From Gonium pectorale (taxonomy: Eukaryota > Chlorophyta > Chlorophyceae > Chlamydomonadales > Volvocaceae), in assembly GCA_001584585.1 (NCBI GenBank), contig LSYV01000009.1, forward strand, positions 456,756 through 497,973: 41,218 bases of DNA, read 5' to 3'. Shown one piece after another: positions 7,942 to 39,287 of the stretch. The position numbers were made by a program, and so were the translations under genes. Positions within the stretch are counted from its first letter, which is position 1, and every line of letters starts with the position of its first letter. The notes beneath the pieces were generated by a model. The model ran no database searches, was not told the DNA's origin, and saw nothing but the letters and a program-made list of their open reading frames with translations.

Positions 7942-7943
7942 AA

Positions 7944-8279
7944 ATGGCCTTAAATGAAAAAGGAAACTTCTGTTACCTTGACGAAGACTCCCACTGGATT
8001 CGGCTTGACGCAAACCTGACTGCCAGAGTGGAGCGCGTGACCAACAGCGTTGCGCGCGTGTACCTGGTGGACAATGCTAGCGTGCAACAGGTGGTGCCGG
8101 CCAACGTGCGCATGACGGACTCAAGCGGCAGCCTGGTACCGCCCTACCAAAATAACTTCCTAATAGCCTGGATGGAGAGCTACGAGCTAACCCTCAACGG
8201 TCAAGTGGTGCTGAGACTTAACAATTCAAAGCAACAGGCAATATACGCGCCACCAAACGCTCGTCATGGCATCGACTGA
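7944..8279 (+). CDS. Hypothetical protein exon (111 codons)
   Basis: The frame begins MALNEKGNFCYLDEDSHW, directly behind a possible splice acceptor (CCCTACAG, ending at 7941), and ends with TGA at 8277-8279. The residue mix is balanced: hydrophobic alternation, Val/Asn/Leu-rich, few Arg/Cys/Pro. It reads like a beta-rich folded domain rather than a shadow frame. There could be upstream exons, because the frame stays open back to about 7845 and the acceptor implies an intron. A donor (GAAG|GTAATG) just after the stop, an acceptor at 8922 and TGTAA at 9377-9381 suggest a spliced 3' part. I do not recognise a family. Confidence 0.45.
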   Translation: MALNEKGNFCYLDEDSHWIRLDANLTARVERVTNSVARVYLVDNASVQQVVPANVRMTDSSGSLVPPYQNNFLIAWMESYELTLNGQVVLRLNNSKQQAIYAPPNARHGID

Positions 8280-14685: not shown

Positions 14686-17600
14686 ATGAACAAAATGAGG
14701 CGCCTGCCTTGGAGCGGGAGCCACTTCGGCGCTTGGGCGAGACACTTTCAGACGCAAAGAGCTCTTTTGGCTGAAGGGAGCATTCCGCCCTACTTTCGAG
14801 GTGAGCACGCGTCGGAAGCATCTAGCGGTCCTTGCCACGCTGCCCCTCGCACCGCTCTGCCGTGTCCGGTGGTCTGCGTGGGGACCTGCGCGCGAGCCGT
14901 TGCCGAATAGTGCAAGGCGTGCCGTGTGGGCCGGTAGTCGCAACGGCGCTAGTCCTCGTGGTCCTCCTGGTCGTCACTCCGGACGGGGCCGAGCCCATTC
15001 ACATGAGAAACTGCAATGTTTTGCCCCCCCCCAAAGCCCTTCATAGATAGAGGCAGCACCACCCGCAAACCCCGTATACCCCTCCCCCGCTCACCGTTCC
15101 CATTTCACACTGTTGGGTTCACCCCTCCTGCCAACGCCCCGTCACCTTTCGCGCTTTCAGATCTGGGCCGCGCTGGCGGTGCCGCAGCGACCGCTGGCGA
15201 GTCCGTCGGCGGCGCTGCTGGCGTGGGCGGTCCCTACGGCGGGCCGCTCCCGCGCAGCTACGGCCCCTATCAGAGCCCCGGGCGGAGGCTGCTTGGCAAC
15301 ATGCTGCGTGTGCTGCTGCCAGTCAGCGGCGTCTCGCTATTTTGGTACGCCTACACGCACCCAGACGAGGTGCGTAATTGAAGCGTGGGGGTGCGTGGGT
15401 GTGGGGGTGTTGTGGTGCAACGCCAGCCGCCTCCCGCCCGACGCACGACACCTGGGCACGGCAGTCGCGGGGTGAGCCTCCACTGGAGTCACCTCCACTG
15501 GAGTCTGCCGTAGCAAATCCCACTATGAAACCCAACACATGTCCGAGACGGTTCAGGTGGTTTGGTCAACCCCTGCTCCCGAATTGCCGCTTCCCACGAC
15601 CCTACTGCATGGAGTGTGTACGCTGCCCTTCCTTCTCGGTGGCCCACATTCACGGCGCCCACCCCACCCCGCCTTCGCCCCCGCCTCCGCAACCCCCCGC
15701 CCTCCCCTCCAGGACTCGCTCGTCGGCCGCAAGCTGCCCCCCGAGCTGCAGTACCTGGCGTCCGACCAGACGCCCAACTCTGACACGCTCACCAACTGGA
15801 GCGGCACACACGAGGCCACGCCCAGGTGGGGCGGAGGGGGCCGCAGGGCGGGGCGGGAAAGCCGATTCCCGGCACATACGTTGCTGACGGCCGGGCGGGG
15901 ACTCGAGGGGCTGTCACAGCCGCCATCGTAGAGTGCCGACCGCTGGAGCCACGGCCTCGCAAGCTCCAGCCCTGTTGCCATACGAGCCCCCCGCTGCCAC
16001 CCCGCGCCGCCGAGCCACCTCCCCTGCCTATAGTTAAGTCGTTGCCCTGCCGTCGCTCTTCAGCTTTGCCCCACCCCGCCTCCCCGCCCTTGGCCCGAGC
16101 CTCCCCCCGCCCCCTGCGTATGCACCCCGCACGACACCCGCCGTCCTGGAGAATGCAGCTGGCTTCCAGTCCCTCGTCATGTAATCCTCAACCCTCGTAT
16201 CAACCCTCGTCGCCTCCGCCGCCAGGCGCTATTTCCATCCCGAGCGGGAGTCCGATGTGGAGGCCTTCCTGCGCGTCGCGGCCACCCGCGGGGACCGCCT
16301 GCGCCCCGCCGGCAGCGGGCTGAGCCCCAACGGCAGCGCCCTCAGCCGCGAGGGCGTGCTGGCGCTGGGGGCCATGGACCGCGTGCTGTCGGTCGACCGG
16401 GACAAGAAGCAGGTGGGGGCGGAGGGCGGCGACGGCGAGGGCCGGGAGGTCGGAGGGCCGGAGAGGACAGTGGCGTGGGGGTGGCGGCCATGTGACACGC
16501 GCGCGTTGCCCCCCAGTTGCCATGGTTGCCTGCACCGCTGGTCAAGTGCTTACTAGTACTCAGCCCGCCCCCTTCCCCGCGTGCCCCGTGTCCCCGCCCG
16601 CAGGTGACGGTGCAGGCGGGCTGCCGAGTGCAGGCCCTGGCGGACGCGCTGGCGCCGCACGGGCTGACGCTGCAAAACTACGCGTCGATCCGGGAGCAGC
16701 AGATCGGCGGCATCACGCAGGTGGGGGCGGGCTGGGGGGCGGGAGGGCGGGTGGTTGAGCGGGCAAGCCGGAGCGCATCGGGAAGCGCGCAGCGGGGGGG
16801 CGCGGGGCTGACAAAAGCGGGAGTTCACCTCACAGCACGGAGGTGGGGGCCCAGTGGGCAGGTGGGAGCCGGAGGTCGGCGCAGCACGGGGATTGGGCCG
16901 GGCCCCGCGGACCCGCCTACGACCCCCCACACACACACATGTACATGTACGTGTGTTCCATTTCAACACACACTCACAAACTCCACCCGCTTCCCCACCC
17001 CGCAGGTCGGCGCGCACGGCACGGGCCCCCGCATACCCCCCTGCGACGAGCAGGTGGTGGCCATGCGGCTGGCCACCCCCGGGCTGGGCGTCATCAACCT
17101 CAGCGAGGACGAGGAGCCGGAGCTGTTCAGGTGCGGGAGGTGGGGGTGGGGGGAGGGCGAGGATGTTGCCGTTGCCATCCTTGGGCAGACACACACGGGG
17201 TGCAGGGACATCACCCCTTCGACTGTCTCCGGAGCTGGGTCCTACACCGACGCCGTCACTTTCGCGCTTACGCTCGTCGTATGCGTTTTCCTTTTCAACA
17301 CACGGGGTGGTTCCACCTTTCACGCTCGTCACGACGGTGTACGGCGCGCCACACCCAGTCGTTATCGCGCCTCGTCCCGTCGGCCGTCGCACCTCGCGCT
17401 CCTCCCTCTCCAAGCCCCTCGCCCGCTCACCATCAAAGCCACCCTCAGCTCCACCGTCCGGCCCCTCGTCTGCTTCTCCCGCCCGTCAACCCCGACCCCT
17501 TAGCCTCGTGGAGACTGCCGTGGACGTTAAATGCGAGTTTACATGCCTAGGACCGCTCGGTGTTCCAATTCACTGAACACGCCCCACCCTCGTCCCCTTC

Positions 17601-22150: not shown

Positions 22151-22215
22151 ACACAGGGGGAGATCACGCTTACGCTCGTCGTATGCATTTTCCTTTTCAA
22201 CACAGGGGGAGATCA
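22151..22215 (+). repeat. Dispersed 38-bp sequence, copy 2, flanked by a 16-bp direct repeat
   Basis: The core at 22167-22204 matches 17265-17302. Here it is bracketed by two exact copies of ACACAGGGGGAGATCA (22151-22166 and 22200-22215). This looks like a small duplication or insertion footprint. Confidence 0.75.
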
Positions 22216-22376: not shown

Positions 22377-23093
22377 GTGGTGACCCTCATCTATGGCCAT
22401 ACGCATCCAAAGGCGCCAGCAGGGTAAGCGTGGTCAAGGCAATACGGGCGAAGCCAATGAGCAGACCCGTCCCCCGCTCCGCAAAGCAGTGCTGCTCACA
22501 TGGCATACCGGTACAACCTTCTCCCACCGTACGACCGTAGCCGCTGCAGCGACACTAGCCTCCTGCGTCCCAAAGCGCAAACAGCCCACGTACGCACATG
22601 TGCGCAACAGGTACGGCCGCGCGCGCAGCCCTCGAAGCTGCCAAGCCGCTGAACCCCTACCCACAGTGTCGCCTCCCAAACGTAATCTAAGCAACGTAGC
22701 CAAGGAGCATCCCCGCCACGAGTCGACTAGCCCCGTGCATGACCACCAAAGTACTAGCGGTGTCGCCCGTCGGAGGCTTCGCGGAAAGTGCTTCGTGCAC
22801 TGATACGCCTCCCGTCTCAACGCACCCGGTTATGGTGCGTTGCACGCCTGCTCATGACTCATAGTACTACGGGTGTTGCCCGTCAGCAGCTGACTCGGCT
22901 AAGCTGTGTGTCGTGGTGCCGCTTCTTGCTCTACGGCCCAACTACACCCAATGACACCAAGGTGCTTTGCGCTCCTGCACACGCACTTCTCACAGCACTG
23001 GACTGAGTCCCTGCCGCCTCCGCCCGTCCTTCCATCGGCCATCGTGTATACTAACCAGCAAACTCGTAAGAGACCTGTGTAGCAGCCACCCCG

Positions 23094-26000
23094 TCACGCC
23101 AGGATGCACCTGAGCACCGAGGCCGCCGGCACCCCGCACCGGGGGCACGGGTCGCCCACCGCAAAGCCCGGCACGCAGTCCGCGCACAGGCACAGGTGCA
23201 CGGACCGGCCGTGCAGCACGCCCACGGTCGCCGGCGCGGAGCAGCAGCGGAGGCACTGCTTCTTAGCCGGCACATCCCCAGCAGCTGTGCTTGCGGCCGC
23301 GGCCCCAGCCACCAGGACGGCCCGCGCCGCGGCGGGAGCAGACTCGCTGCCGCTGTCGTCACCGCTGCCAGTCACCGGAGACTCTCGCTCAAGTGGCCGC
23401 GGCGTTGCGCGCCGCAGCGCCAGGGCCAGTGCTGGGTTCATGGCCCCAAGGATGCATGGCTGCAGCGGCACGGGCGGCACGGACAAGGAGGCCGCCGACC
23501 GTGTCGGCGTACCCGGCGGCGGCGGCGCAACACGCCGCAGCTGCGGCAACGCAGACGGTGCGGGCGCGGCGCCTGGTGGCCTTGTGCGCGTGGATACGGG
23601 CGCCTCTAGCGCCGGTGGCGGTGGGTCGGGTGAAGATGGCGAGGCGCCGCCCGACACACGCCCGCAAGCCTGCCGTGCCGGTGGGCTCGGGGTTTCGGAC
23701 TGAGGTGCGGCGGCGGCGCTGCGGCTGTCGGGAGCGGGCGCAGGAGCGGACACGGCGAGGGGCGGCGGCGGGAAGGCGGTGGTGCGCAGGAGCTGTGGAC
23801 TGGGCGCGCCAGGGCCCGTCGTCGCCGCAGGTGGAACTGCTTCGGCTGGTGGCTGCGGCGGCGTTGCGGGGGCCAATGCGGCTGGAGGGGACCGCTGGGA
23901 CATTGACCTGCTGACGCGCGGAGGTGCTTGAGCGGGCGGTCTGCCGGGCTGCGGCTGCGGCTGAGGGCCGCCGGCAGCTGAGGTGGGCTGGAAGACGGTG
24001 CGGCCGCCGGTGGAGCGGGGACGCGGCAGAGACGGGGCCGTGGTCGCGGCTTTTACAACCTGGCCCCGGGCTGCCTGCGCCGCCTGAGGGCGTGCGGGCA
24101 TTGCCCCCGCCGCTGCGGTCACGACGGCAAGCCGTGCATGTGCTGACGCCGTGGGCATCCCGCCTCCCACACTACCGCCGCCCCGCTTCTGCTGCCGCTT
24201 CGGCGGCTGCGGCGGCGGGTGGGCACGCGTCGCAGCCCGCGGCTTGTTCGTCCCGCCCCGGCCACTGCCGGCCGCTGCCGCCTGTGCTTCCTCCTTTTGT
24301 GCCCGACCGCTGCTGCCTCCAGCCCAAATGGTCCGAAGCCGCCTCACCGCTGCAGCCACGGACGCGATGGACACGATGGGCGGACGAATACAGTCTGGAC
24401 GGTGGGCGAAGAGCCAGAGCACGAGCATCACGGCGAGCGCCCGGAGGAGTGGCCAGTAGGCCAGAAGTGGCTGCATCGCCAGAATCTCCTGCAGCAGGTG
24501 GACAGCATACGCTTTCGGACGGTGCTGCTGGTTGTGTGTTGTTGTAGCTGTTCCTGACGTTGCTTCTTTGGTGTTGTGAGCGGGCACCCCTCGCCTCCCC
24601 GCATACGGCGCCGCGGCTAGGGTATCAGCGGTGTCAGCGGTGCGTCCCCGAAGTCGCCCAGCCCGCCTAGGCGCCCATAGTCGGGCTACGTTCCACGCAG
24701 CCTGCGTGTCCTCGGGCCGTGCACGCGCGCGGCAACCCAGCGGCTAGCTAGTTTTCTCCCCGGCCGCCCCAAGTAAGCCCGCGTGCCATACAAAGAACCC
24801 AGCCCGGCATGAGTGTACTCACGCAGTGCTGGGCCATTTCTGATTTTGGGGCATCGCCGCCCTCCGACGGCGGCCCAAGCGCATCCGCCGTCGGCTCCAG
24901 CTCTGAGGCAGGGGCCTCCTCGCTGCACTCCGCGCGCATTGCCGCCAGCACATGATACAATTCGGGCCATCCGCCCGCCCTCCAGCCGCGCACGGCGAGC
25001 AGGTTGATTCCGGCCGCCAGCCGAAGGTGGCACCAGGAGCGCTCCAGCAGTCCGTGCGGCGCCTTGCAGCCCGGCACGCGGCATGCGGAGGCGCCGTCCC
25101 AGGCGGGGACCAGCGGGCGCCCCGCCGCCGACTCATACAGCAGGTTTAATACCCCACCACCGTACGATGGCAGGACGTACGCGGGAAGGTATCCAGGGGA
25201 CAGGAGCAAGACGCCCAGGCTAAAGCCTAACGCTGTTCCGAGCGACCAGAGGTAGTAGCCCCAAAGCCAAGCGAACAAAACCCGGCCAGTGGTGGGACAG
25301 TCACCATGATACTTCTTCGTCGCGCAGTGGGCCATCACCCAAACCTTGTCATGCTTGGGCAAGATGAGTGGATTGATGTGGGACCTCCCCGACGAGGCTG
25401 CGGCATCGAGCACGTTGGCAGTGAAGGCCTGGTTCCAACGCGTCCTTCGATGCGCCGCCACAAGCACGGCGGCCAGAACTGCCAGCCCAAGCGAGGCAAG
25501 ACACATCAGGACGGCTCGGTTCTCCAAGCAGTTCATATTGGCCGTCCAAAGCAGGTACGACTCTGCAGGCGCTGCCACGGCCGAGTGCCAGAACGAGCCT
25601 CGGGGCAGGATGGCGGCCCAGCTGGGGCGCAGGGCGCCACAGAGTGACCCCGTCGCCAACAGCCACCCGCAGAGGGTCGGCCGGGACACATTCCATCGCT
25701 CCCACACAGTGGGTGCCGACTCTGGGCACGTGACGATGTGCCTGCGTGCGGTGGGGAAGGCGGGAACCCGCACAGACCTCCATACACACATACCACACCA
25801 GCAGGCAGCTGGTCACGAAACAATAGTAGCTGTGATACAGTGGCATACAATAATGAAGATGTCGCTGAGGCGGGGCATTGCGCCAGGAGCTGTGGCGTTG
25901 TCGGGTAGTGTCTGCTTGGACCCACGACCCATGGGTCATTAAGAAACTTAACAGCCTTTCCGGTCAATTACATGAGCACCGTCAGGATGAGGCGACCCGT

Positions 26001-26854
26001 TCCATTCTTTTCTCCATGCCCTGCCGACGCATAATGCACCCCACTGGGATCGATCGGGCTGCGGCCACGCCAGTCCAACTGCCACCCCGTCACCCGGTTG
26101 CTGTAAGTCACCCCAACTCGCCCCCACGCGCGCACGACGATTTCCAGCTCACTGCATGCGTGAGGCCATTGCGTCCGCCACCGGGCTATGAGGCAGCGCT
26201 CCGGGTCGCGGGACGGCCGCCGAACCAGCCGAACCCAGATTCCGCCGCTGGTTCCGCTTCTCCAGGAGCTCCCTCCGCTTCATGCACTCCTCGTGGAACA
26301 GCAGTGCCATGCCGACACTGGCGAAAAATAGTACGGACGGTTCAAGCCTCGGCATAGCTGCCGGCACGCTGGCCTGCATAGCAGCCCAGTCGGCCACGTC
26401 GGCGAGTGGCCAACCGCTAGGAAGGAGCCCGCCTGGCGCGACGCTTGCCAGCACCTCCGGGCCCAGCAGCATGTATGGCGGTGAGCACCATGAGGGCGAG
26501 CATGACGTAGAAAAGGTGGCCGACGCAAGCGCGAGAGCTGGGAGCGCCTCTCTTGTAGGCTTGAGCTTTCGCTGCCAGTCTGGCAGCGCCCTCTTTGAGC
26601 AGCGCCGCCGTTCCAATCGCAGTAAGGGGCAGCAGTAGACACGAGTACTGCAGAAATGATATCAGCATAAAGAAAGCGCCGTCGAATGGGTGCGTTGACG
26701 GCCAGAGCGGAGCAGCCTCTATCGCGCTTGTCGGGGCCTCGCAGGTTTCGTAGGTTTCAGCGACAGCAACGAGGATAGATAGTGCAAAACCAATCGCCAC
26801 TCCAGGTCCTCTGCTAATAGCAAATGCTCCAAAGAGCCACCCCGAACGCGCCAT
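23094..26854 (-). CDS. Multi-pass membrane protein with C-terminal MDM2-like RING, copy 1 (possibly frameshifted)
   Basis: By comparison with copies 2 and 3, the exons are 26854-26153, 25741-24823 (306 codons plus a split codon) and 24488-23094 (464 codons plus stop). Donors are GCA|GTGAGC and TGC|GTGAGT; acceptors are GCAG|GCACATC and GCAG|GAG. Phases (2, then 0) equal those of the other copies. The first exon has the family motif THPFDGA and two or three membrane segments. It lacks about 75 residues present in copies 2 and 3, including the equivalent of their first intron. It also needs a +1 shift near 26470-26480 to continue in the homologous frame (LLGPEVLASVAPGG). The middle exon has PAYVLPSYGG and the Cys motif (ACRVPGCKAP, ERSWC). 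The last exon has a membrane helix (WPLLRALAVMLVLWLFA), about 350 Pro/Ala-rich residues, the motif NPALALALRR and the RING. It could be a decaying copy, or an unrecognised small intron may restore the frame. Confidence 0.65.
23097..23255 (-). other. RING domain of copy 1 (MDM2-like C2H2C4)
   Basis: Ligand pattern: C-x2-C-x10-H-x4-H-x3-C-x2-C-x9-C-x2-C, then exactly 13 residues (GVPAASVLRCILA) to the stop. The two His lie in HGRSVH. MDM2/MDMX RINGs use the same order, with HGK/HGR-like spacing and a 13-residue hydrophobic tail needed for dimer formation. IAP-type RINGs share the tail length but have a Cys-Gly-His centre instead. Confidence 0.8.
25926..25937. repeat. GACCCATGGGTC palindrome (2 of 4)
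   Basis: A perfect 12-bp palindrome inside the first inferred intron of RING gene copy 1. Confidence 0.5.
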
Positions 26855-27054
26855 GTCTGCGTGATGCGGTGAACGGAGCTGCGCCTGAGCGCCTCTGACT
26901 TGCAATAGTATTTAGTGTTATCTTTGCAAGGCCTGAGGGGCTTCGTTCGACGCGCGCGAGCAGTCAACGTGAATCAGATCCCATTCTGGATCCGGCGCGG
27001 GAATGCCTCTGCGCGCCATGCATGGGCGGGAGGACGATGATGGGCCTGCTGCAC

Positions 27055-27066
27055 GACCCGCGGGTC
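27055..27066. repeat. GACCCGCGGGTC palindrome (3 of 4)
   Basis: A perfect 12-bp palindrome about 200 bp upstream of the copy 1 start codon. It is a possible regulatory site or element footprint. Confidence 0.45.
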
Positions 27067-27596
27067 AGTTCGTATCATTCCTTCATCCTCTCATCATACA
27101 GTTCCTTTGAGGAGTCCATGTGCTTTACACATGAGTGCAACGTTGCTGGTACGTCCTTGGTCCACACTCCTAAACTGCTTCCGTGGCCTGTTGGAGGCCT
27201 CGTACGATGTGTTACTGGACTTGCCGCGCAAGGGAGAACGGGGTTGAGGGATACTAGTTTCACAGTCCAGGTGGCGTGCGTGCATCAGCTCTGGACCGCA
27301 CCCGTGCATGTAGCCTCGGAGAAATGCCCAAATGCAAGAGACTCTTAGCCACTATCCAGCCCACGTTCTGAATCTAACCCGTGAAAGCTGGACTGCAAGG
27401 CAGGTGCGGTGTGGCGTCGAACCACACGGTGTATCCTACGCAGCTGCGGTAGGAGCCTACCTACAGGCTGTCTGGGATACTAGGCATGCCATACTTCGGC
27501 GTCAGGCGCTGAAGCGGGGTAGAGACGAGGACCATAACCTGCTCCCCCACTCCAATACTCGCATTCGTGCATGAACCCCCTGGCTTTGACGGACGT

Positions 27597-27626
27597 GTAA
27601 CCTGCAACCTGTAACCTGTAACCTGC
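27597..27626 (+). repeat. TGTAACC short tandem repeat
   Basis: TGTAACC/TGCAACC units occur four times in tandem. They do not match the algal telomere unit TTTTAGGG. Confidence 0.7.
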
Positions 27627-27936
27627 CTGCAGGCCTGCTGCTGCTGCTCTTACACGGAACGATGCAGATTGCTTAACGGGCGGCGAGATCTGCTGCTGGA
27701 AGACACAGCGGGCAAGCCGCAACCGACCGACAGCAGGAGCACGTTCTTCAGCCCAGACGCGAATGCAAAGGCGGGTTGGGCGGCACCACCACCGCGCCAT
27801 CAGACGCCAATTTTGTACAATTCAATGCAACACATCCTGCCCAGTGAGTTGGTACACGCTCCCAGTTCGGGACTCTCAAAGCGCAACATCAACAGGCACG
27901 CTACCAAAATACACACGCAGGGCCGATAGGCAGCAC

Positions 27937-27941
27937 TTACA
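27937..27941 (-). promoter_or_regulatory. TGTAA poly(A) signal of RING gene copy 2
   Basis: TTACA on the plus strand reads TGTAA on the minus strand, about 325 bp past the copy 2 stop. That is a normal 3' UTR length for this kind of genome. Confidence 0.5.
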
Positions 27942-28264
27942 ATGGTACGGCATACATGTGCACCTGTTCTAATGCTGTCGTCGGCCACCTCGGTCCAATG
28001 CAAGCCTATTTACGATCTCAGGAGCGTGCAGCTCGGCCAGCACAGCTAGCGCAGATACTGAAGGCTGCGGAGCACACGCTGCCCTCGCGTGGGGCGTAGC
28101 ATGAGGTCGTGGCGTGTTCCGCTCTGCAACGCATGCATGCTACTGGGCAGGTCGTTCAGCATCATTTACCATGGGGCGCATTTACCATGCCCGCGCGCAG
28201 CACTTCGATCAGCCGTACCTCGCTTCAGTCAAACAAAGTGGGAAAACGGATTCCCTCCCCGCCG

Positions 28265-31200
28265 TCACGCCAGGATGCACCTGAGCACCGACGTCGCCGG
28301 CACCCCGCACCGGGGGCACGGGTCGCCCACCGCAAAGCCCGGCACGCAGTCCGCGCACAGGCACAGGTGCACGGACCGGCCGTGCAGCACGCCCACGGTC
28401 GCCGGCGCGGAGCAGCAGCGGAGGCACTGCTTCTTAGCCGGCACAGAACTGGCCGCAGTCGCCTCAACAGGGGCGCTGCTGGCATGTGCTCCTGGGACGG
28501 CGGTGAAGCCATTGCTGCGGGCCGCCTTGATCCCCGTCGTCACGACCTCCGGCGCCGCGGCCGCGTAGTCGACCTGCGGCACCGCCCGCCGCAGCGCCTG
28601 GGCCAGTGCCGGGTTCACGCCGACGAGGCATGGCGGAGGCGACAGGGGTGGCCGCGGCGGCGGCACGACCGGCGAGGGAGGCGGCGGCGGTGCGGCAGGC
28701 CCGCTGACGGGGATGGGTATGGGCACCTCGAGCGGGGGCGAGTGCGGGATGGGAAGAGGTGCCGTTGAGCTGCACGCCGGGCTGCCGACCCGCTCTCCGC
28801 TGCCGGGCTGCCGCTTCGGAGGATAAGGGATGTCTGGCGGGGTTAAGGCAGCGCTTGTGGGGCCGATCTGGCTGACCGGCGCCACGGGAGCGGGCGCCGC
28901 AGCAGGCTGCGGCGCCGTAGCGAAGGGCGCCATGGCGCCCCGGGCACGGGAAATGGGGGTGGCAGGGGCGGTCGGTGACGCCGGAGGAGGCACACCCGCT
29001 GCCGCCGACGGTGGTGTCGAAGGCGACTCGGCTGCTGCGGGCTGCCTGGTGCCTGTGCGCTTGGCGAGCGGCGCAGCGCGGGGCGAAGCAGCCGCTGCCG
29101 TAGCGGACTGAGGGCAGCTGGAACGTGCCCCGGGGCCGGCGGCGCAGCGGGTACTGCCCACCCGGGTCCAGCCCGCACCCGCCCCGTCGCGTTGCTCTGC
29201 CGCGCCCCTCACAGGAGCGTTGGCCTGGCCGCCTGGCCGGCGCGTGTCTGGAGCTGTGGGGACGGAGGCCGCCGGCAGGAACGCTGTGGGACCGCCGGTC
29301 GAACCCGCGCGCGAAGCCGGGGCCATGGCCTTGGCTGGTGCCTTCGCAGCGTGGCTCCGGGTGGCGGTAGTAGTGGGCCGTCCGCTGCCGCTGTTGTTGC
29401 TACTGCTGGCTGGTTGGGACGGCGACGCGCTTTGGGCACAGGCGCCGGCGTCGTCACCGCTGCAGCTGGCGTCGCCGACTCGCAGTGACAACGCCGAGTC
29501 AGGGTCGGCGGCCGCAGGGGCGGCACGTGTGTCGCTTGAAGGCTTGGCTGCTGCAGCTGCTGCCATCCCCGCGGACACCTGCGACGGCGCGTGTGCACGC
29601 GTGCCGGCCTGGCGCCTGCTGCGGCCTGCTGCCCCTGCGGACTGCGCGGCCGTGTGACTGCCGCCGCCGCACCTGGTGCCGCCGCCACTGCGGGCGCCGC
29701 GGCCGCTGCGCAGCCGCCCTTTGACCGCTTCAGCTACGGCGTTCAGAATCGCTTCCGGCGATTGAAGGCAGTCGGGCCGGTTGGCGAAGAGCCAGAGCGC
29801 CAGGATGGACGCCAGGGCCAGGTTGGTGAGGAGCGGCCAGGGGAGACGCGAGCCACCGTTCGTAGCGGGAGCCTACGCGCGAGTAGGCAGTAGGGAGGGG
29901 GAGGTTAGGAGGTTCAGGAGGCGAGAAGTGGTACAGGTCTGCCGGCCCCGTGCCGATCGCCGTGCGGTGCTTGGGCACGAGAAAAACCCTGCGCGGACGA
30001 CACGACGGACATGCCCTCCCGTTGGGTGCCCGTCTACCCGCACCATGCAGTGTGGCCGCCGCTCGCCACCTGTCGTGCGTCCCCCCATCTCACGTCATGA
30101 AACCCTCCCCCCAAAGGCGCCTCTCCTAAAGGCGCCTGCCTCCCCCAAACGCGCCTCCCCCAAAGGCGCTGCCTGCCTCCTTACATGTCAGCAGTGAGGA
30201 AAGGGCGAAAGACCCATCGCCCAGCGGCGGCGCCGCGCACCATAACGTCCATAAGGGCACTCACCCCCGCAATTGATGAGGGCTTGCCGCGCATGTCGCC
30301 GCCGCCGTCGCCGCCGCCGCCGTCGTGTCGCCGTCCCGCCTCCATTCCCGCACTCACGGGCCCGGAGGCGGCACGTGGCCTGACATGCACCGGTCGGCCG
30401 TCACCTGCCGTACCGCCCGACTCGGGCGCCTGCCGCCACGCGGCCGCAGGTGGCTGCTGCTGCTGCCCTGGGCCTGGCGACCAAGTCGCCCGGCGGCGGG
30501 GCTCGGCGCCGGTGGCGGGGGGAGGCGGCGTGCTGCGGCGCTGCTGACAAAGCGCGTCGCGCTCCACCCAGCCCTCCCCAAGAGCCTCCCAGCCGAGCCC
30601 CAGGGCCCAGCGCCCGCCCATCTCCCACAGCGCGGGCCGCGAGGCCAGCACACGGCGCACCGCATCAGCGGCCAAGGCACGGAGGGTCTCGTCGACCGCG
30701 GCCTCCTCGCTGCAGGCCGCCCGTGCCGCCTCCATTGCGATCTGTAGCCCGCCCACCCCGCCGGCCTCCCATGCGCGCACGGCAAGGAGATTCACCTTGG
30801 CCGCCATCCTGATGTCGCACCACGTGCGCTGCCACAGACCTTGCGGCGTCCCACACCCCGGTACGGCACACGCAGCAGCGCCCCAGGCGCGGCTCGCTGG
30901 GCTCCCCGTCCACACGTACGGTAGTTCGGCAGGCTGTCCGCCGTACGACGGTACGACGTACGCGGGCGGGAATCCCGGGAACAGCAGCCATCCGATGAGC
31001 ATTGACCCCGTACGGACGCCGAGGCACCAGAGCGCACAGCTCTGGAGCCAGCCCCACACCACCCGTCCGTACGTTGGGGCGTCGCCGCGGGCCGCCGTGG
31101 TGGTGTTGTACGCCTGTAACCAAATCGCGTCATTGGTCGATACGCCGGCCGCCTTGTGGGGCCGACCAGCAGCGGCAGCGGCGTCGACCATGTTTCTCGC

Positions 31201-33300
31201 AAATTCCACCCTCCACCTGGCCTTCCGAAACCTCGCCACCGGCACGGCGACCAGGCAGGCGAGTCCCAGTCCCATCACAGCCCACACGACCGCTAGCGGC
31301 TTGAGCGCGTTGAGCTCACGCATCCACGCGACAAATGCGGCGCCAGGCCGTATCAGGCGCCAATGCCACGGCAAGCGGGCGGGCAGGATCAGGTCCGCTC
31401 CACCGGACGCCAACACGCCGCAGACAAAGCCAGCGAGCTCCAGCCGCCCGAGGCGGAATGGTCGCGGCACGCCCCCGCGCTCCCGTACGGTGTTAGGCGA
31501 CGCCATGCGCGCGGCGATGCGCCTGCGTGCAGCAGACAAGGGGGAAGGATTGCCGTGCGGGTTTGAAGACGGTTAAGTAATGGTTATGAAGATACGATAC
31601 TGCCAAGAATCTAGAGTAAGTGGGAGGGAAGGTACTGCACAGGGCCTGCCGAAACCGAACACCGAATCAGCCTAACTAAAGGACGAGTTGTGGGGTCGCA
31701 CAGACACCTGGAACAGCCTGAGACCTCAGTGGAAGAGATGTCTGAGGCAAGGAAGCAAAAGAATAAAACGACTGTGCCAAAGGCACGGATAGGAAACGCC
31801 GTGAATGGGTGTACCAAGAGGCTGCTGAACCGTGGGCCATTTTCGGGTTGAGGTTGCTGCGGCATCGCCGTCGCTATGCACCATTTCCAGGTTAAACACC
31901 TTCAGGACGCAACCAAGGCCCGTCTGCTCGTCGCCTTCCCCCGTCATGCCACCCGGCGCCATACTGGACACGTAGCCTACCCTGTCCCTGTTTGCTTCAC
32001 CAATCCCTCGCGTTGAGCATCATCTGTGTCCCCACCTGCGCCCCATTCTAGACAGTGCCAACCCTCATATCACCGGGGCAAACGGCTCCCCACTCACTGC
32101 GTGCGTGCTAGTTGGGTCTCCGACAGGGCTTCGCACGTGCGCATTATCAACTTGATGGTTTTGGAGGACAGCGTTGGCGAGGCACCATTGATAGGCCCCT
32201 TTCGCAGCCTCGCAGCCTCCGGAAGCTCCCTAATGCTGTCCCGCAGGTAGTCAATCAGCGAAACGAAGACGCCGAAGCACACCAGTTGGGCGACTGCACC
32301 ACGCTTGTTCGTGAACACAAAAGTGGCCTGCATCCACACCCATGTCACCACGTCGGCAAACGGCCGGCCACGGGAAACGCAGCTAGGAGCGAGGGCCACC
32401 AGGGCCCAGGCGCCCAGCAGCGCGCAGCCGAGCATGGAGACGAGGCAGAGCGTAAACTCAAACTTTTGCCGGATTGTCCTGCGGGCGGGCGGGGTGAAGA
32501 GCGTTTCGTCAACCGTGGTGTGGGCCACCAAAATGGCGAGGGCAGGAGTGGGGAGCAGAACGGCGGATGCACAGGAGGTGTCGGGGCTCGCAAGAAATGA
32601 TGGTAGGATCAGGAGGATCCGGGTAGGATGACCTGGAAGACACGGGCGCCCCTTGTGTCGGGTAATCAGGCAGCAACAGGCCCCTCCCCCACCCGAGCGT
32701 GGATGCTAGCATGTCCCACGCGCCGTCGTGCCCGCCCACCACGACCCTCAGCCCCCGAGCCTTTTCTACTCACATTGGCTCATTGTTGCCATCCTGGACC
32801 CGACGGAGCAATCCCGGAAGGTGATTGACGTGGGTCAGCAAGTTCAGGCCAGAGCTGCTGCTGTTGTTGTTGTCTAGCAGCAGGCGCCGCTTCCGGTTCC
32901 GTTCTGCCATGGCCCTCTGAACATGACCAGCAAAGGAGCTCCGCGATCCGCAAGGCGCGGACGCAGGAGCGCCGGCCTCGCGACCCGCCGTGAGCAGCGC
33001 GCCGCCCTCCAACAACAACACGCCGGTAATGACCGCGGCGAGGGGCGTCAGCATGCGGCAGTACTGCCAAGCAGATATCATTAGGAGGAAAGCTCCGTCC
33101 CAGGGGTGCGACCTCGGCCAGTCGACGGTTAGCGCGTCGGCAGCCTCTGCCGCCACGCTGCTGGAGACCGTGTCCGCTTTGGTTGTGGTGATAGCTGCCA
33201 AAATTGCCGTTGTCAGCATGATTGCCGCGGCAGGCCTTCCGCTGCTGGGTATGAGCGCAAATTCCACTATAGTCTTAAGCCCACCAATGCCCCGAGCCAT
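28265..33300 (-). CDS. Multi-pass membrane protein with C-terminal MDM2-like RING, copy 2 (1257 aa)
   Basis: Five exons: 33300-32774 (phase 2 end), 32478-32098 (phase 2 end), 31522-30265 (phase 0 end) and 29872-28265 with TGA; the last is one long exon, giving four coding exons in total. Borders: CCAAT|GTGAGT, CCGCAG|GACA, CGCA|GTGAGT, CGCAG|GCGC, GGGG|GTGAGT and GCGTAG|GCTC. The product has membrane segments near the N-terminus, motif SHPWDGA, then a very hydrophobic MLGCALLGAWALVA helix (exon 2). The middle exon has more membrane segments and PAYVVPSYGG, with cysteines in ACAVPGCGTP and QRTWC. The final exon has the helix WPLLTNLALASILALWLFA, some 400 residues of Pro/Ala/Ser linker, NPALAQALRR and the RING (last 53 residues). 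The start MARG at 33300 aligns with starts of the other copies, although the frame is open upstream to 33651. Inferred membrane-bound E3 ubiquitin ligase. Confidence 0.75.
28268..28426 (-). other. RING domain of copy 2 (MDM2-like C2H2C4)
   Basis: All eight putative ligands are identical to copy 1, including HGRSVH. The only change is Ala to Thr in the 13-residue tail (GVPATSVL). At DNA level the 185-bp block 28262-28446 differs from 23091-23275 at two adjacent-region bases only. Confidence 0.8.
30109..30180 (+). repeat. Degenerate tandem repeat of CCCCCAAAGGCGCCT-like units
   Basis: Four degenerate units of C-rich/AAAGGCGC sequence lie within the inferred intron between the third and fourth coding exons of copy 2. 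Confidence 0.7.
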
Positions 33301-33699
33301 CAGCACGGATGTCAGCGTCACTGAAGTTATTGCTGTGAGTCTGCTAGTTGCGGACGAAGTGGGCACGGAAGAGGAGCGCTGTAAAAGCGATTCGCGATGC
33401 AGTCCTTGGGGAGGCAGCGACGCTCTAATCACGTCACGGGCGTTGTGTGGTTTGCAGAAGTGACCTGCGGTTAATAAGACGCGGTAGAGAGCCATGGCCT
33501 TTCCTGAGCTCGTCCACCTCGTACCCACGTGCGGCCTCCGGGCAGCGCCCGCGGCAGCCCCTTCAAGCCCCTCGCTACTTTCTGCGCGGCTTTGCAGCGG
33601 CCGCGAATGTTCCTCTGGTTGTGCGACGAGGCGTGGCATGGTCCACGCCACCCAGGGGCGAGAATGGAGCAGGAGGCGGCCTCCGCAGAACGCACATGT

Positions 33700-33711
33700 G
33701 ACCCACGGGTC
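33700..33711. repeat. GACCCACGGGTC near-palindrome (4 of 4)
   Basis: It lies 400 bp upstream of the proposed copy 2 start codon and shares both half-sites with the other three occurrences. Confidence 0.4.
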
Positions 33712-34340
33712 GCGGCCCCCGCACCCTTATCATGTGCTTTCCCCCGTGACTGTTGGTGAAAGAAGAGAAGTCGGCGGTAACTTGCACCCGACCCCGCTGG
33801 GACGGCGCACGGCAGGCGCTGCTCGACGATGCAGCCGATCATGGTCTTCGTAAACGTTCTTGCGCTAACTGGCGGCGACGCGTACCAGCCTGATGAGCCG
33901 GCGTCTCCTGGGCCCCGGGCTGTGTGCGGCATCACTGTTGGAACAGGTGACATGCGGCACACGGCATACCTACAGCCAACAGACATACTGGGTCAATCGC
34001 CCTGCAAGCCCATGCGGCCTATGCGGGCCATTGCCCAAGCCATCCATCACAGCTTTATGCGCAGGTGAGGACCCAGGGACTCGCGGACGCCGGAGGAGCA
34101 GGAGTTGCAAAGTAGCGCCGCACTCCCTGTTATGTTACCCGAACCCTGGCTTCCTTCCATGCCCGCCGTTCTAACAGTTGCACGTGGCCGTTGTGACACG
34201 AGTTCGATCGCTATGTTCGACAGTCGCCCTCGAAGAGAATCCACGGAGGTCTGCCATGGCGCGAGGTGTATGGGTTGCTACCCGTAAAAGACCTGCGCAC
34301 GCTGTGCTGGGCAGGGCAATCCGTGCCCGATAGTAGGCGC

Positions 34341-34345
34341 TTACA
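34341..34345 (-). promoter_or_regulatory. TGTAA poly(A) signal of RING gene copy 3
   Basis: TTACA on the plus strand, about 363 bp beyond the copy 3 stop. The distance is close to that seen for copy 2, supporting both assignments. Confidence 0.5.
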
Positions 34346-34707
34346 TAATGATAACCATCCTTGAAATCCGAGCAGCTTGCGTCCTGCAGTCCACTCAGCA
34401 AGGTAGCTTTGCTCAACCCCTCCGTACACAATGGGCGGTTGCGCCTACATATCGAGGATTAAGTATCGTAACCCTGTACTAAACTGCCCTCTCATGCGTC
34501 TCGACCTGGGCCGTCCCAAGTGCGCGCTGCGTTGCTTTCCCGTGCCCACCGCCCACCGCCTACACTAGCGACCTCTGCCAACGGCGTTGGGGAATCGCAG
34601 CGATCAGGATGCGCCCTCACTCGCCGCGCATGTCTGCTGTCAAGGTATCAAACAGTACCCTCCAGATTCGCCAGGGCACCGCCCTCGCCTCCGCCCTGTT
34701 CATACCT

Positions 34708-37700
34708 TCAGGCCAGGAAGCACGACAGCACCGACGTCGCCGGCTCGCCGCACTCAGGGCACGGGTCGCCCACCGAAAAGCCCTGGCCGCAGCCCGAGCA
34801 CAGGCACAGGTGCATGAACCGGCCGTGCACCACGCCCACGCGGGCCTGCGCGTTGCAGCGGAAGCACAGCTTCTTGACCGGCACCACCCGCCCCGCCACA
34901 CCGCCGCCAGCAGCCTGGGAGGTCAGCGGCTGCACGCCCGGAGCGGCCGCGCCGGCCGCCCCTCCAGCGGTGCGCCGGAGCGCATGCGCCAATGCGGGGT
35001 TGACGCCGACCAACGGGGCCGCCGCCGGAGTCGGCGTGACCGCGGGCGGAGCGACGGGCGCCTTGACGGGGATGGGTTTGGGAATCTCCAGATCGGGCGA
35101 GGGCTGCTCGGTAGGAGGCGCTGCGGGCTCCTCGCGTGTGCCAGGTGCGGCCGCCGGAGCCTGGCGCACGGGGGAAGCTGGTACCGGCGGCGGCCGCAGC
35201 GGCGTTGTCGGCGGCGGCGGGCGGGCGGTGGCGCTCGTGGCGGCGGCAGCAGCCCAGCCCCAAAAGCTGGATGCGGGTGGCACCGACGGCGAGTGCGTCT
35301 GCGATAGCGGAGGCGGCGGCACGGGCCTAGCCTGCTTGGGCGCCACAGCTGCCGGGCCAGCAGTTGGGCGTGTCGCAGCGGCCGACGGCGCTGCTGTGGA
35401 CCAGCTGGCCGGAAAGGCGTCCTCCGGCCGCGCATCGCCGCCCAGCGCAGCCGTGAAAGGCAGCGCAGCAGCCAGCGCAGAAGCGGCGGAGCTGCCGGTG
35501 CGGCCCTCTGCAAAGCTCGCCACCGGCTTCCCCTTGGGAGCCCGTTCCATCTGCTGCTGCTGCTGGTGCTGCACGCCGGCGTCCGGGAGGCAAGTGCTGG
35601 CGGGGACGAATGCCGTCTTGCTGGTACCCGGCCGGGCCTTGGGGGCAGTGGATTTGGCTGGTGGGGCCTTGGCGGCCTGGCTTCGTGCGGGGGCCGTGGG
35701 AGGCGCGTCAGCAGCAGAAGTGGACTTGCGCTCCGCTGCGTGCGCCCGCGCCGAAACCGATGCCTTGCCGCGGCTGGAATCCCTTGCGCCCAGAGCTTGC
35801 TTGGGCGAGCCAGCGCTGGTTGTACATACGGCAGGCGGGGCTGACGCAGGAGCATCCGTTAGCTGCGGAAGCTTATGCTGCTGCTGCTGCTGCTGCTTCA
35901 GCGGCGGCTGCGACAGCGGCTGTGATGGGGGGGACTCCTTTGCCCTTGACGCTGCCTGCTTCCCGCCAGCCTGCCTACCGCGTTTGCCCCCACCGGCACC
36001 TCCACCAGCCTGGCGCGAGTTCCTGCCGGCCCCAGTGCGCGACTTGATCACCTCCATCGCCGTGTTGACAAACGCCTCGGGCGAGCGCAGCCAGTTGGGG
36101 CGGTAGGCGAAGAGCCAGAGCGCCAGGAAGGACGCCAGCGCCAGGTTGGTTAGCATCGGCCAGGTGATGCGCGAGCCGCCATTCGTAGCGGCAGCCTGCC
36201 GCGAGTAGAGAGAGGGAGGGACGCGGGTTGAGGACTGTTTGGCGACCAGGCACGGCAATGGTTGCCTGATAAATGCACGCCGCGGATCAAGCCCGCAGCG
36301 TGCAGGGTGAATCCCTGCCACAAAGGGGATCCCGGCGGACGGGTCAGGGTGATAAATGCGGGACGAGGGTTGGCCGGTGGGGCCCCAAACGCAGCAGCAC
36401 AGGCCGTCACAACCACGCCAAAGAACCGGCTTGCATCCACGGCAAACTCTTTAGGCCACCACCAGAATGCTTACCAAGTGCAACCCAAAACGGCACAATG
36501 CCAGCCGCATAGCGCCGCCCCGCTCCTGCCAGCCTACCCACCTTCCTGGCCGTCGCGCTCTTGCTGCGCGAAGCCGGCGCGCTGCTCCGCTGCTCCTTGG
36601 TCGGGCGGCGGCGCCTGGGCGCTTGGGCGGCCTGCTGCGCCGCCTGGCCTACGCCAGCCGACGACGCGTGGACCGACCCGGCGCCGCGGTCCTCAACGCA
36701 AATCCAGATAGCTCGCCACCATGGCAGGACCGGACACACGTTCTTTAGAGGCTCTTGACCATTGCCACCGCAGGCGGCGAGGTCGGGCACGTTGGGAGGC
36801 GGTAGGAGATTGTCGTCGAAGCCGCCTCCATCAAAAGCTCGCTGCTCCCGGGCCTGAAGGGAGCTCTCCTGTGCCTGGAGACCCTCGGCAGGGATCTCCT
36901 TGCGACGCACCCAGCCGGGCCCCAGCAATTCCCACGTGACGCCTAAAGCCCACAGCTCGCCCATGGCCCATCGGGTTGGCCTCGCAGCTAGCACCTGGCG
37001 CACAGTCTCAGACGCATGGGCGCGCAGTGCCTCACTCACTGCGGCCTCCTCGCTGCAGGCCACCCGCATCGCCTCCATCGCGGTCTGCACCCCGTCAAGT
37101 CCATCCACCTTCCAAGCGCGCACCGCGATCAAGTTGACTTTGGCCGCCAGCCGAACGTCGCACCAGGAGCGCTCCCACAGCCCCTGAGGCGCCTCACAGC
37201 CCGGCAGGCGACACGAGGCGGCGCCGCCCCAGGCCGGCGCTGGCTGTTTCCCCGCCCACACGTACGGCGTGCTCACTGGCCCTCCCGGAAGCAGCGCCAC
37301 CCCACCGCCGTACGACGGCATGACGTACGCCGGAAGGTACGTTGGGAACCGCAGCCAACCCAACGCCAAGGAGCCAAACCAGACGCCCAACCAAAAGCGG
37401 GTGGTGTGCCTAAGGAGCGGCAGCAACGCACTACCGAAGTTGGGATAAGGCCCATGATATTGCGTTGTCAAGTCCGAGGCCTGTTGACACAGGCGATCAT
37501 AGATCAAGTCTGCTGCAGGCGAGAAGGGATCGAAGTACAGCGGGCTGGTGTACTGTGACACGTACGCTCTATATGTTTTCATCCACCGGTTGCGGCGGAT
37601 TGCGTTAATGACTGCGGCCAGGCCACAGTACATCAGCACCAGCAGCACGCCCCAGCCGAGAGCGCCGGCCTTGAGGGCGCGGAGGCCGGCGAACCACCGC

Positions 37701-39287
37701 AACCGAGCCAGAACCGGCCACGCCAGCAGTGCGCGCCACCGCGAGCCCGCGGGCAGGAAGGCGTTCGCGCCGCCGTATACCAAAATGCCGTACACCGTAC
37801 TGCTCAGCCAGAACAGCTCGATGAAGGTTGGACGAGGCGTGCACCAGCGCTCCCACACCGTCGGCGGCGTCATTGCCCGCGTGGTGATCTGCCTGCGGCG
37901 TGGCGAGGTGAGGAGCAAGGGGACTCCATCGTGGGCAGCGGCCGGCCAGGCGGAATGCGCTGGGTGCCGTGCGCAATGAGGTAGGGCCGGTGGCAACGCG
38001 CACACACGCACACATACGCTCACACACGCCGCGTGCACACTGTCAAGCATAGATCTTTTATATCTTATAGGACAAGCGTCGCGTCATCCGCTTCGCGCAC
38101 AAGCCCTCCCGTGCGGGAAGCACTGCCGTAGGTACTGCCCAGGTGCCCGCGTGTGCCCGCGTGGCGCCGGTGGAGAATTTGGGCGGAGCCATCGGGCCGC
38201 TCCCACGAAGCCACGCTGGGAGCCGCCCCGAGTGAGTGCACGTACGGCCTCACCGCAGCCGCTCTGCCTTCCTGCGCGCCTGTTCGTCTGTATCATACGT
38301 GGGGTCCACCACCAGGTGCGACGGTATCTCCATCATCAGGCCGAGCGTCCTGCGCACCCGCGCGGTTGCCAACAGGTCCTTCCGACGATCCGCCCAGCCC
38401 CCTCCAATGCTGCTCGCCAGATAGCTGACGACGACGGCTGCGAATACCTGCCAGGCGGTGTCCAGCTTGCTCACGGCAGCGAAGCTGATCTGCATCCTCG
38501 CCCAGGCAGCCGCGTCCCCAAAGGGCCGGCCACTCGAAAAAAAGTTGGGGGTGCAGGCCACCAGGGCCCAGGCGCCCAGCAGCGCGCAGCCGAGCATCTC
38601 GGGCACGGAGACGAGACAGAGCGCAAACTGCATCTTGTTGTAGACAGACCTGTGGATTGTCGGGCGAGTAGGGCTGGATGGCACGTAGATGTAGGTGCAC
38701 GGATGTCCAGTATCCGATGCTTCAGGCGGTGTGCCTTCCCAGTTTCCCCAATTGGGTTGCCCCTCCCTGGTGTCCCACACCGGTGTCCATAACGCAAAGC
38801 CTTCCACCCTCTTTAGACACACTCACATTGGTTCTCCAGCTTCAACGCGTATCCGCTCAAGGAGGCGCGGCAGCCGCCGGTGATGGGTGAGCAGGCCCAG
38901 GTAGGATAGGCCGCTCTTGTTCAGCAGCAGGCGCCGCTTCCGCGTCCGTTCGCATACGGCTTCAATCCCCCTCGTGCCCACCAGAAGTGTTAGCATGAAT
39001 TCCACAGGACGGAATGAGCCGAAGACGAACATCGTCAACAGACCATTCAGGGCCCTCCTGACTGCTGTGAGCGCACAGGCCATTGCCAGCGGGGTGAGCA
39101 ACCGGCAGTGCTGCAAGGCGGATACGAGCGTTAGGAGGGCTCCATCCCAGGGGTGCGTCGAGGCTGAGTCTGTGACATATCCAGTAGCGCTAAAGCTGGA
39201 CGCCGCAGCCACAGCGACTACAGCAACCAATCCGATAACTGCCACGTCGCGCATGTCGTAGGTCCATTTACGAAGCGTTGCGTGCAT
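34708..39287 (-). CDS. Multi-pass membrane protein with C-terminal MDM2-like RING, copy 3 (1231 aa)
   Basis: Four coding exons: 39287-38827, 38649-38254, 37892-36542 and 36195-34708. Phases are 2, 2 and 0, identical to copy 2. Borders: CCAAT|GTGAGT, CCACAG|GTCT, CTGCG|GTGAGG, CCGCAG|GCAG, GGAAG|GTGGGT and GGCAG|GCTG. Likely membrane segments lie at about residues 15-35, 48-76, 82-103, 161-185, 219-236, 309-331, 362-383, 451-478 and 748-768. Family motifs are STHPWDGA (43-50), PTVWERW, PAYVMPSYGG (about 474-482) and a Cys set C-x4-C-x11-C (513, 518, 530), then VACSEEAA. After the last helix come about 400 residues rich in Pro, Ala, Ser and Gln, including HQQQQ and KQQQQQQHK tracts. NPALAHALRR and the RING (1180-1231) follow. 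This is the most intact and best-supported copy. Substrate, membrane and biological role are unknown. Confidence 0.8.
34711..34866 (-). other. RING domain of copy 3 (MDM2-like C2H2C4)
   Basis: Pattern C-x2-C-x9-H-x4-H-x3-C-x2-C-x9-C-x2-C, with the two His in HGRFMH, and again 13 residues to the stop (GEPATSVLSCFLA). It is clearly homologous to copies 1 and 2 but diverged at many positions, unlike the near-identity between those two. Confidence 0.8.

Follow-up and report, generated by a model that had tools for sequence, protein, structure and literature searches.

The stretch of Gonium pectorale DNA analysed here, further called the window, is 41,218 nucleotides long (assembly GCA_001584585.1, contig LSYV01000009.1, positions 456,756 to 497,973), and its minus strand carries three copies of one gene plan arranged head-to-tail. 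The plan of this trio opens with membrane exons, followed by an exon with Cys residues, a single helix, and a low-complexity linker, and it closes with a RING of the C2H2C4 type at the C-terminus, similar to that of MDM2. The linker is from 340 up to 409 residues long across the three copies, with Ala, Gly, Pro, Ser, Thr, and Gln accounting for 71–73% of its composition. The features of the three copies, in window coordinates, are as follows.

38827..39287, minus strand: copy 3 exon 1, membrane part, start codon at 39287 (open frame, GTGAGT donor, homology to copy 2 exon 1)
38254..38649, minus strand: copy 3 exon 2, membrane part (flanked by phase 2 introns, as read by eye; genome search)
36542..37892, minus strand: copy 3 exon 3, membrane helices and Cys-containing domain (45% and 39% identity to copies 2 and 1, respectively)
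34708..36195, minus strand: copy 3 exon 4, helix, low-complexity linker, RING, and stop codon
36106..36168, minus strand: copy 3 single helix before the linker, ending LWLFA and followed by YRP (hydropathy; conserved in the three copies)
34972..35001, minus strand: copy 3 linker motif NPALAHALRR (identity across copies, shuffles)
34711..34881, minus strand: copy 3 MDM2-type RING, with Arg in place of I440 and Gly in place of R479
32774..33300, minus strand: copy 2 exon 1
32098..32478, minus strand: copy 2 exon 2
30358..31522, minus strand: copy 2 exon 3 (an alternative donor would carry the exon to 30265)
28265..29872, minus strand: copy 2 exon 4 (helix 29783-29845, NPALAQALRR 28586-28615, RING 28268-28441)
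26152..26854, minus strand: copy 1 exon 1/2 remnant (tblastn matches in two frames; break between 26501 and 26469)
24823..25741, minus strand: copy 1 exon 3 (25741 being the last base of a split codon)
23094..24488, minus strand: copy 1 exon 4 (helix 24405-24467, NPALALALRR 23409-23438, RING 23097-23270)
36541-36196 (copy 3), 30357-29873 (copy 2), and 24822-24489 (copy 1), minus strand: last introns
23091..23274 (copy 1) and 28262..28445 (copy 2), minus strand: probable gene-conversion tract pair (182/184 bases identical, abrupt edges)

The four exons of copy 3 join into a single predicted frame of 1231 amino acids, interrupted by introns of 177, 361, and 346 bp, each of the GT..AG type, while copy 2, with four exons at homologous places, codes for 1226 amino acids, or for 1257 if a second GTGAGT donor is used. 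The intron phases, read by eye, are 2, 2, and 0 in both copies, and copy 1 likewise has phase 2 ahead of exon 3 and phase 0 ahead of exon 4. The tandem triplication and the shared plan, proposed in a first-pass annotation made from the sequence alone, are thereby borne out: there are three minus-strand copies, two of which are predicted to splice into full open frames through GT..AG introns. In copy 1 the frame is broken near 26.5 kb. Its exons 3 and 4 are open and together give 770 amino acids, and exons 1 and 2 are still recognisable (tblastn expectation values, E, of 8e-13 and 0.004), their homologies lying in different frames 31 bp apart, with the stretch bearing intron 1 missing. GTGAG and GTAAG donors are absent from the frame-compatible GT-AG introns of at least 40 bp that start at 26650-26351; with GC donors also allowed, 130 combinations for the repair of the frame were listed. 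The break may be due either to decay or to an assembly error.

It might be argued that the RING exon is part of a different gene, which merely adjoins the one with the membrane exons, and the two possible donors of the last intron in copy 2 would be in line with this, but the exons keep the same order in three copies, the donors and acceptors of the last intron maintain the frame in each of them, and annotated volvocine proteins, described below, have the same plan, so that such an arrangement is very improbable.

The membrane spans are predicted from hydropathy only, which marks 6 and 8 segments when a loose threshold is applied. In the 40 residues following the last helix, each copy has 6–7 basic and 2–3 acidic residues; the charges around this helix fail to settle the topology, because copy 3 is equally basic before it. 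The AlphaFold models are poor, with a mean pLDDT (predicted local distance difference test) of 42.5 for the RING and 49.1 for exon 3. Within the linker, the motif NPALAxALRR is identical at nine of ten residues in the three copies, a level reached by none of 200 shuffles, and it is likely, judging from this conservation, to be a docking site.

A search of the 128.9-Mb genome with exon 3 gave five scored candidates, of which three matched, all inside the window, the other two copies at E 1.8e-71 and 3.8e-43. With exon 2 the only matches were the three copies, copy 1 being weak (E 0.028), and with the RING the good matches were again the three copies, followed by a gene on contig C3 (E 0.009) and a stretch on contig C14 (E 0.59). 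Exon 3 found nothing credible in Pfam, NCBIfam (a scan of three members), or PDB; a match to Argonaute-2 at E 1.4 was taken as chance. Neither the full copy 3 model, scored against 7,993 candidates of a large protein collection including volvocine proteins, nor the exon 3 alignment, scored against 7,998, gave a match, in searches which, with both candidate lists full, relatives sharing few exact words may escape and which both leave aside proteins of about 596–676 amino acids. Viral contigs, scanned with only two short peptide patterns per scan, yielded no relative of exon 3 or the RING. As judged by these searches, the membrane domain of the trio is without a credible match outside the Gonium genome. 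A Pfam profile check of the 1231-residue copy 3 returned only a sub-threshold match to zf-C3HC4_3.

In the RING all eight zinc ligands occupy the places they have in MDM2 and MdmX (MDM4), copy 3 being one residue shorter in one loop, and the last Cys is followed by 13 residues, as in MdmX. In a PDB search with the RING, each of the 17 sequences at E ≤0.025 was an MDM2 or MDM4 chain (best E 8.6e-5), and such chains were the only matches below E 0.1. The cut-off of the Pfam family zf-C3HC4_3 (PF13920), 27 bits, is not reached by the copy 3 model (17.3 bits), nor by the isolated RINGs of copy 3 (24.7 bits) and copy 1 (22.3 bits). The likeness to MDM2 pointed out earlier thus holds in the C2H2C4 ligands, in the MDM2 spacing near the C-terminus, and in the best PDB matches.

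The face by which MDM2 engages the ubiquitin-conjugating enzyme (E2) is changed in the trio. The place of MDM2 I440 is taken by Arg in all three copies, preceded by Leu or Phe, that of V477 by Arg or Glu, and that of R479, straight after the last Cys, by Gly; the L468 place has Phe and P476 is retained. Three of the five compared E2-face positions are altered in every copy. In MDM2, changes at I440, L468, and P476 abolished activity and changes at R479 disrupted it (PMC6465955); I440E and I440K stop the binding of E2-ubiquitin and leave the RING structure unaltered (PMC7010608). According to the latter source, a hydrophobic residue between Cys 1 and Cys 2 contacts E2 in catalytic RINGs, Arg or Lys after the last Cys helps E2-ubiquitin binding in many RINGs, and MdmX, BARD1, and Bmi1 are partner RINGs without E2 binding (PMC7010608). 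Of the other RINGs in the Gonium genome, 41 have a first Cys pair that can be read, and 39 of these carry Ile, Val, or Leu at the I440 place; likewise, 41 have an intact last Cys pair, and in 36 of them the next residue is Arg or Lys. For this comparison 50 of the 59 other Pfam matches were taken, the nine weakest being left out; the first count, in which the residue of locus L087 (Ile) was assigned by eye, excludes nine rows whose first Cys pair could not be read, and the second excludes nine rows whose frame exits the RING.

Since Arg, Arg or Glu, and Gly replace I440, V477, and R479, the RING is likely unable to engage E2, and these changes, the Arg at I440 and the Gly at R479 among them, make an active ligase less likely than a non-catalytic partner. 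The suggestion of the first-pass annotation that the proteins are ubiquitin ligases is therefore weakened. We assign a probability of about one half to the reading that E2 engagement is unlikely and that the RING of the trio acts as a non-catalytic, MdmX-like dimerisation partner set in multi-span membrane proteins. Several points weigh against it. A double change of V439-I440 to Ser-Leu left MDM2 active towards p53 (PMC6465955). The review PMC7010608 describes the I440 position as "barely conserved" among RINGs and treats the part played by the residue that follows the last Cys as a matter of debate. With Phe at the L468 place and P476 retained, E2 binding may only be weakened. The basic residue after the last Cys is absent from 5 of the 41 other RINGs of the genome as well, and Arg also replaces I440 in a RING on contig C27, outside the trio. 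At the position of MDM2 Cys449, which sits at the dimer interface (PMC6465955), the trio has Gly, but the same holds, by eye, for the catalytic-looking RINGs on contigs C3 and C30. The single-chain AlphaFold model of the RING is poor, as given above, and in the RINGs of copies 2 and 3 dN and dS (nonsynonymous and synonymous divergence), 0.221 and 0.209, are nearly equal, which also fits relaxed constraint. The Ser-Leu result does not shift this estimate: Leu resembles Ile far more closely than Arg does, and the substitutions at V477 and R479 hold regardless.

The copies might instead be active membrane-anchored RING ligases with a modified mode of E2 binding, ubiquitinating membrane proteins at the endoplasmic reticulum or another organelle. 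The zinc ligands, P476, and an aromatic residue at the L468 place are retained, a relative of the same plan looks catalytic, and the Ser-Leu change at V439-I440 was tolerated by MDM2 in its activity towards p53 (PMC6465955). In all three copies, however, I440 is replaced by Arg, V477 by a charged residue, and R479 by Gly, and I440E, I440K, and R479 changes disable MDM2 (PMC7010608, PMC6465955), which leaves active ligases a somewhat unlikely alternative to non-catalytic partners.

The relative in question is the gene on contig C3, in whose product membrane segments precede a long disordered linker and an MDM2-type RING at the C-terminus. Along the 66 residues used as query, it matches GPECTOR_2g1377 of Gonium pectorale without a difference; the entry omits the last helix and part of the linker, both of which are present in the genomic frame. 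A protein search with the RING of this gene gave six matches among 14 candidates, with relatives in Astrephomene gubernaculifera, Volvox africanus (two entries), V. reticuliferus (an entry without the first membrane part), and V. carteri, described as hypothetical proteins. Similarly to the trio, this family has a multi-span N-terminus, a last helix, a disordered linker of several hundred residues, and a C-terminal RING of the MDM2 type. Unlike the trio's, its RING lies above the Pfam cut-off and retains Ile and Arg at the E2 face, and its membrane part appears unrelated, as no homology between the membrane parts was detectable (hhalign probability 0.1%, E 0.48, with shallow alignments). Because the C3 gene and its Astrephomene and Volvox relatives have it, the plan of the trio is, as far as these predicted proteins go, not unique. 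The earlier claim that no family with this combination has been described is not supported in that form: the literature search yielded no description of membrane MDM2-type RINGs in green algae, but hypothetical proteins with this plan are on record for Gonium, Astrephomene, and Volvox.

C-terminal MDM2-type RINGs are encoded at eight further loci of the genome (C3, C30 twice, C11, C40, C72, C86 twice), including two local pairs; the RING frame on C72 is without the last Cys pair. The accounts of these loci draw on the frames that carry the RING, apart from the hydrophobic segments noted upstream on C30. The RINGs on C3, C30, and C40 have Ile, Val, or Leu and Arg at the two diagnostic places. 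On C30 (L047, C30:543700-553600) the two MDM2-type RING loci lie ca. 7 kb apart, with hydrophobic segments upstream of the first RING and a frame of the second lacking the first Cys pair. The C-terminal MDM2-type RING on C11 (L048, C11:1161600-1171500) has Ala at the position for E2 contact and a Gly that directly follows the last Cys, and it is possible, on the strength of these two residues, that it is another E2-blind RING. In view of such exceptions, partner-like RINGs may extend beyond the trio. A RING start on C27 (L075, C27:752774-753049) has Arg between its first two Cys residues (CLRC), and its frame exits the RING, perhaps at an intron. On the minus strand of C86 (L049, C86:56500-66400) a 970-codon frame combines ankyrin repeats (Pfam E 5.9e-18), two strong hydrophobic segments, and, at its C-terminus, an MDM2-type RING, and a second, frame-incomplete RING lies ca. 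8 kb away. This gene is of the same general ankyrin-RING type as the XB3-like genes, but differs in its hydrophobic segments and MDM2-type RING; no XB3-like gene was found in C. reinhardtii or V. carteri according to PMC3596331. The C-terminal MDM2-type RINGs of these algae, so far hypothetical proteins, thus form a diverse class.

The three copies have diverged unevenly. In exon 3, dS between copies is 0.94–1.19 and dN 0.51–0.59, with a dN/dS of 0.43 for copies 2 and 3, of 0.48 for copies 1 and 2, and of 0.63 for copies 1 and 3; by these ratios, exon 3 is under purifying selection. In the linker (helix included for copy 1) dS is 1.27–1.75, and in the helix it is 0.56 between copies 2 and 3. 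The dS of the RING is 0.02 between copies 1 and 2 and ca. 0.21 to copy 3. A sharp-edged tract of 184 bases, reaching from just before the RING to just past the stop codon, is identical between copies 1 and 2 at 182 positions. Given a RING dS of 0.02–0.21 against ca. 1 in exon 3, and only 2 differing bases in 184, gene conversion is likely, being the simplest account of the identity of the two RINGs. The fast evolution proposed in the first-pass annotation agrees with the strong divergence outside a few motifs, but does not extend to the RING.

The trio could also represent decaying paralogues of an active ligase gene, the identity of the RINGs of copies 1 and 2 being only a recent conversion event. 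The frame break and the lost segment of copy 1 would suit this explanation, as would the similar dN and dS of the RINGs of copies 2 and 3. Copies 2 and 3, however, retain full frames of 1226 and 1231 codons with GT..AG introns, the dN/dS of exon 3 is 0.43, and the linker motif is retained in all three copies, which together make decay quite unlikely as the general explanation.

If the RINGs of the trio are non-catalytic partners, the N-terminal part would anchor the protein in the membrane, with the linker and the RING exposed to the cytosol. Pairing with a catalytic MDM2-type RING of the same cell, like that of MdmX with MDM2, would be made possible by the conserved ligands and the 13-residue tail behind the last Cys; the candidate partners are the genes on contigs C3, C30, and C40, which keep Ile, Val, or Leu and Arg at the diagnostic places. 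The diverging membrane part would select the place or the client, and the RING would bring the ligase, while ectopic gene conversion would keep the RINGs of copies 1 and 2 interchangeable. A bolder proposal, and a doubtful one, is that the trio forms a receptor-like cluster in which the membrane domains diverge freely while conversion maintains a common E2-blind RING, each copy docking the same catalytic partner onto a different membrane client; it would amount to a modular membrane-tethered MdmX system of volvocine origin, outside the p53 pathway. MdmX, BARD1, and Bmi1 are examples of partner RINGs without E2 binding which tune the catalytic RING they pair with. If a natural pseudo-RING of the MDM2 type, tethered to a membrane, were confirmed in an alga, the same division of labour would have evolved anew outside animals, and the trio would offer a simple system for its study.

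Among known proteins, MdmX shares with the trio the C2H2C4 ligands and the C-terminal position of the RING, and copy 3 has an MdmX-like end, -F-x-A. MdmX, as a partner of MDM2 without E2 binding, is also the protein to which the proposed role is likened. Nevertheless, the p53-binding (SWIB) domain and the zf-RanBP of MDM2 and MdmX were not found by Pfam in the copy 3 model, and the trio, unlike MdmX, is membrane anchored by prediction. MUL1/MAPL and plant SP1 are membrane-anchored RING ligases of organelle membranes, with a C-terminal RING of the zf-C3HC4_3 type. The trio differs from MUL1 and SP1 in having more hydrophobic segments, a long linker, and the changed E2 face, and the copy 3 model and exon 3 of copies 2 and 1 gave no Pfam match to the GIDE/MULAN domain at E 5. 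The XB3/XBAT ankyrin-RING ligases of land plants, which associate with membranes, have a C-terminal RING in common with the trio; no Pfam match to ankyrin repeats was obtained in the same three sequences.

Elsewhere in the window, an FAD_binding_4 domain scoring exactly at the Pfam cut-off is encoded on the plus strand at 16496-17503, in a protein which we take to resemble sugar-lactone oxidases or dehydrogenases. A weak, sub-threshold match to a Tudor domain (E 0.014) lies on the same strand at 7824-8279, and a 46-bp repeat with 93% identity is found outside the trio at 17262-17307 and 22164-22209.

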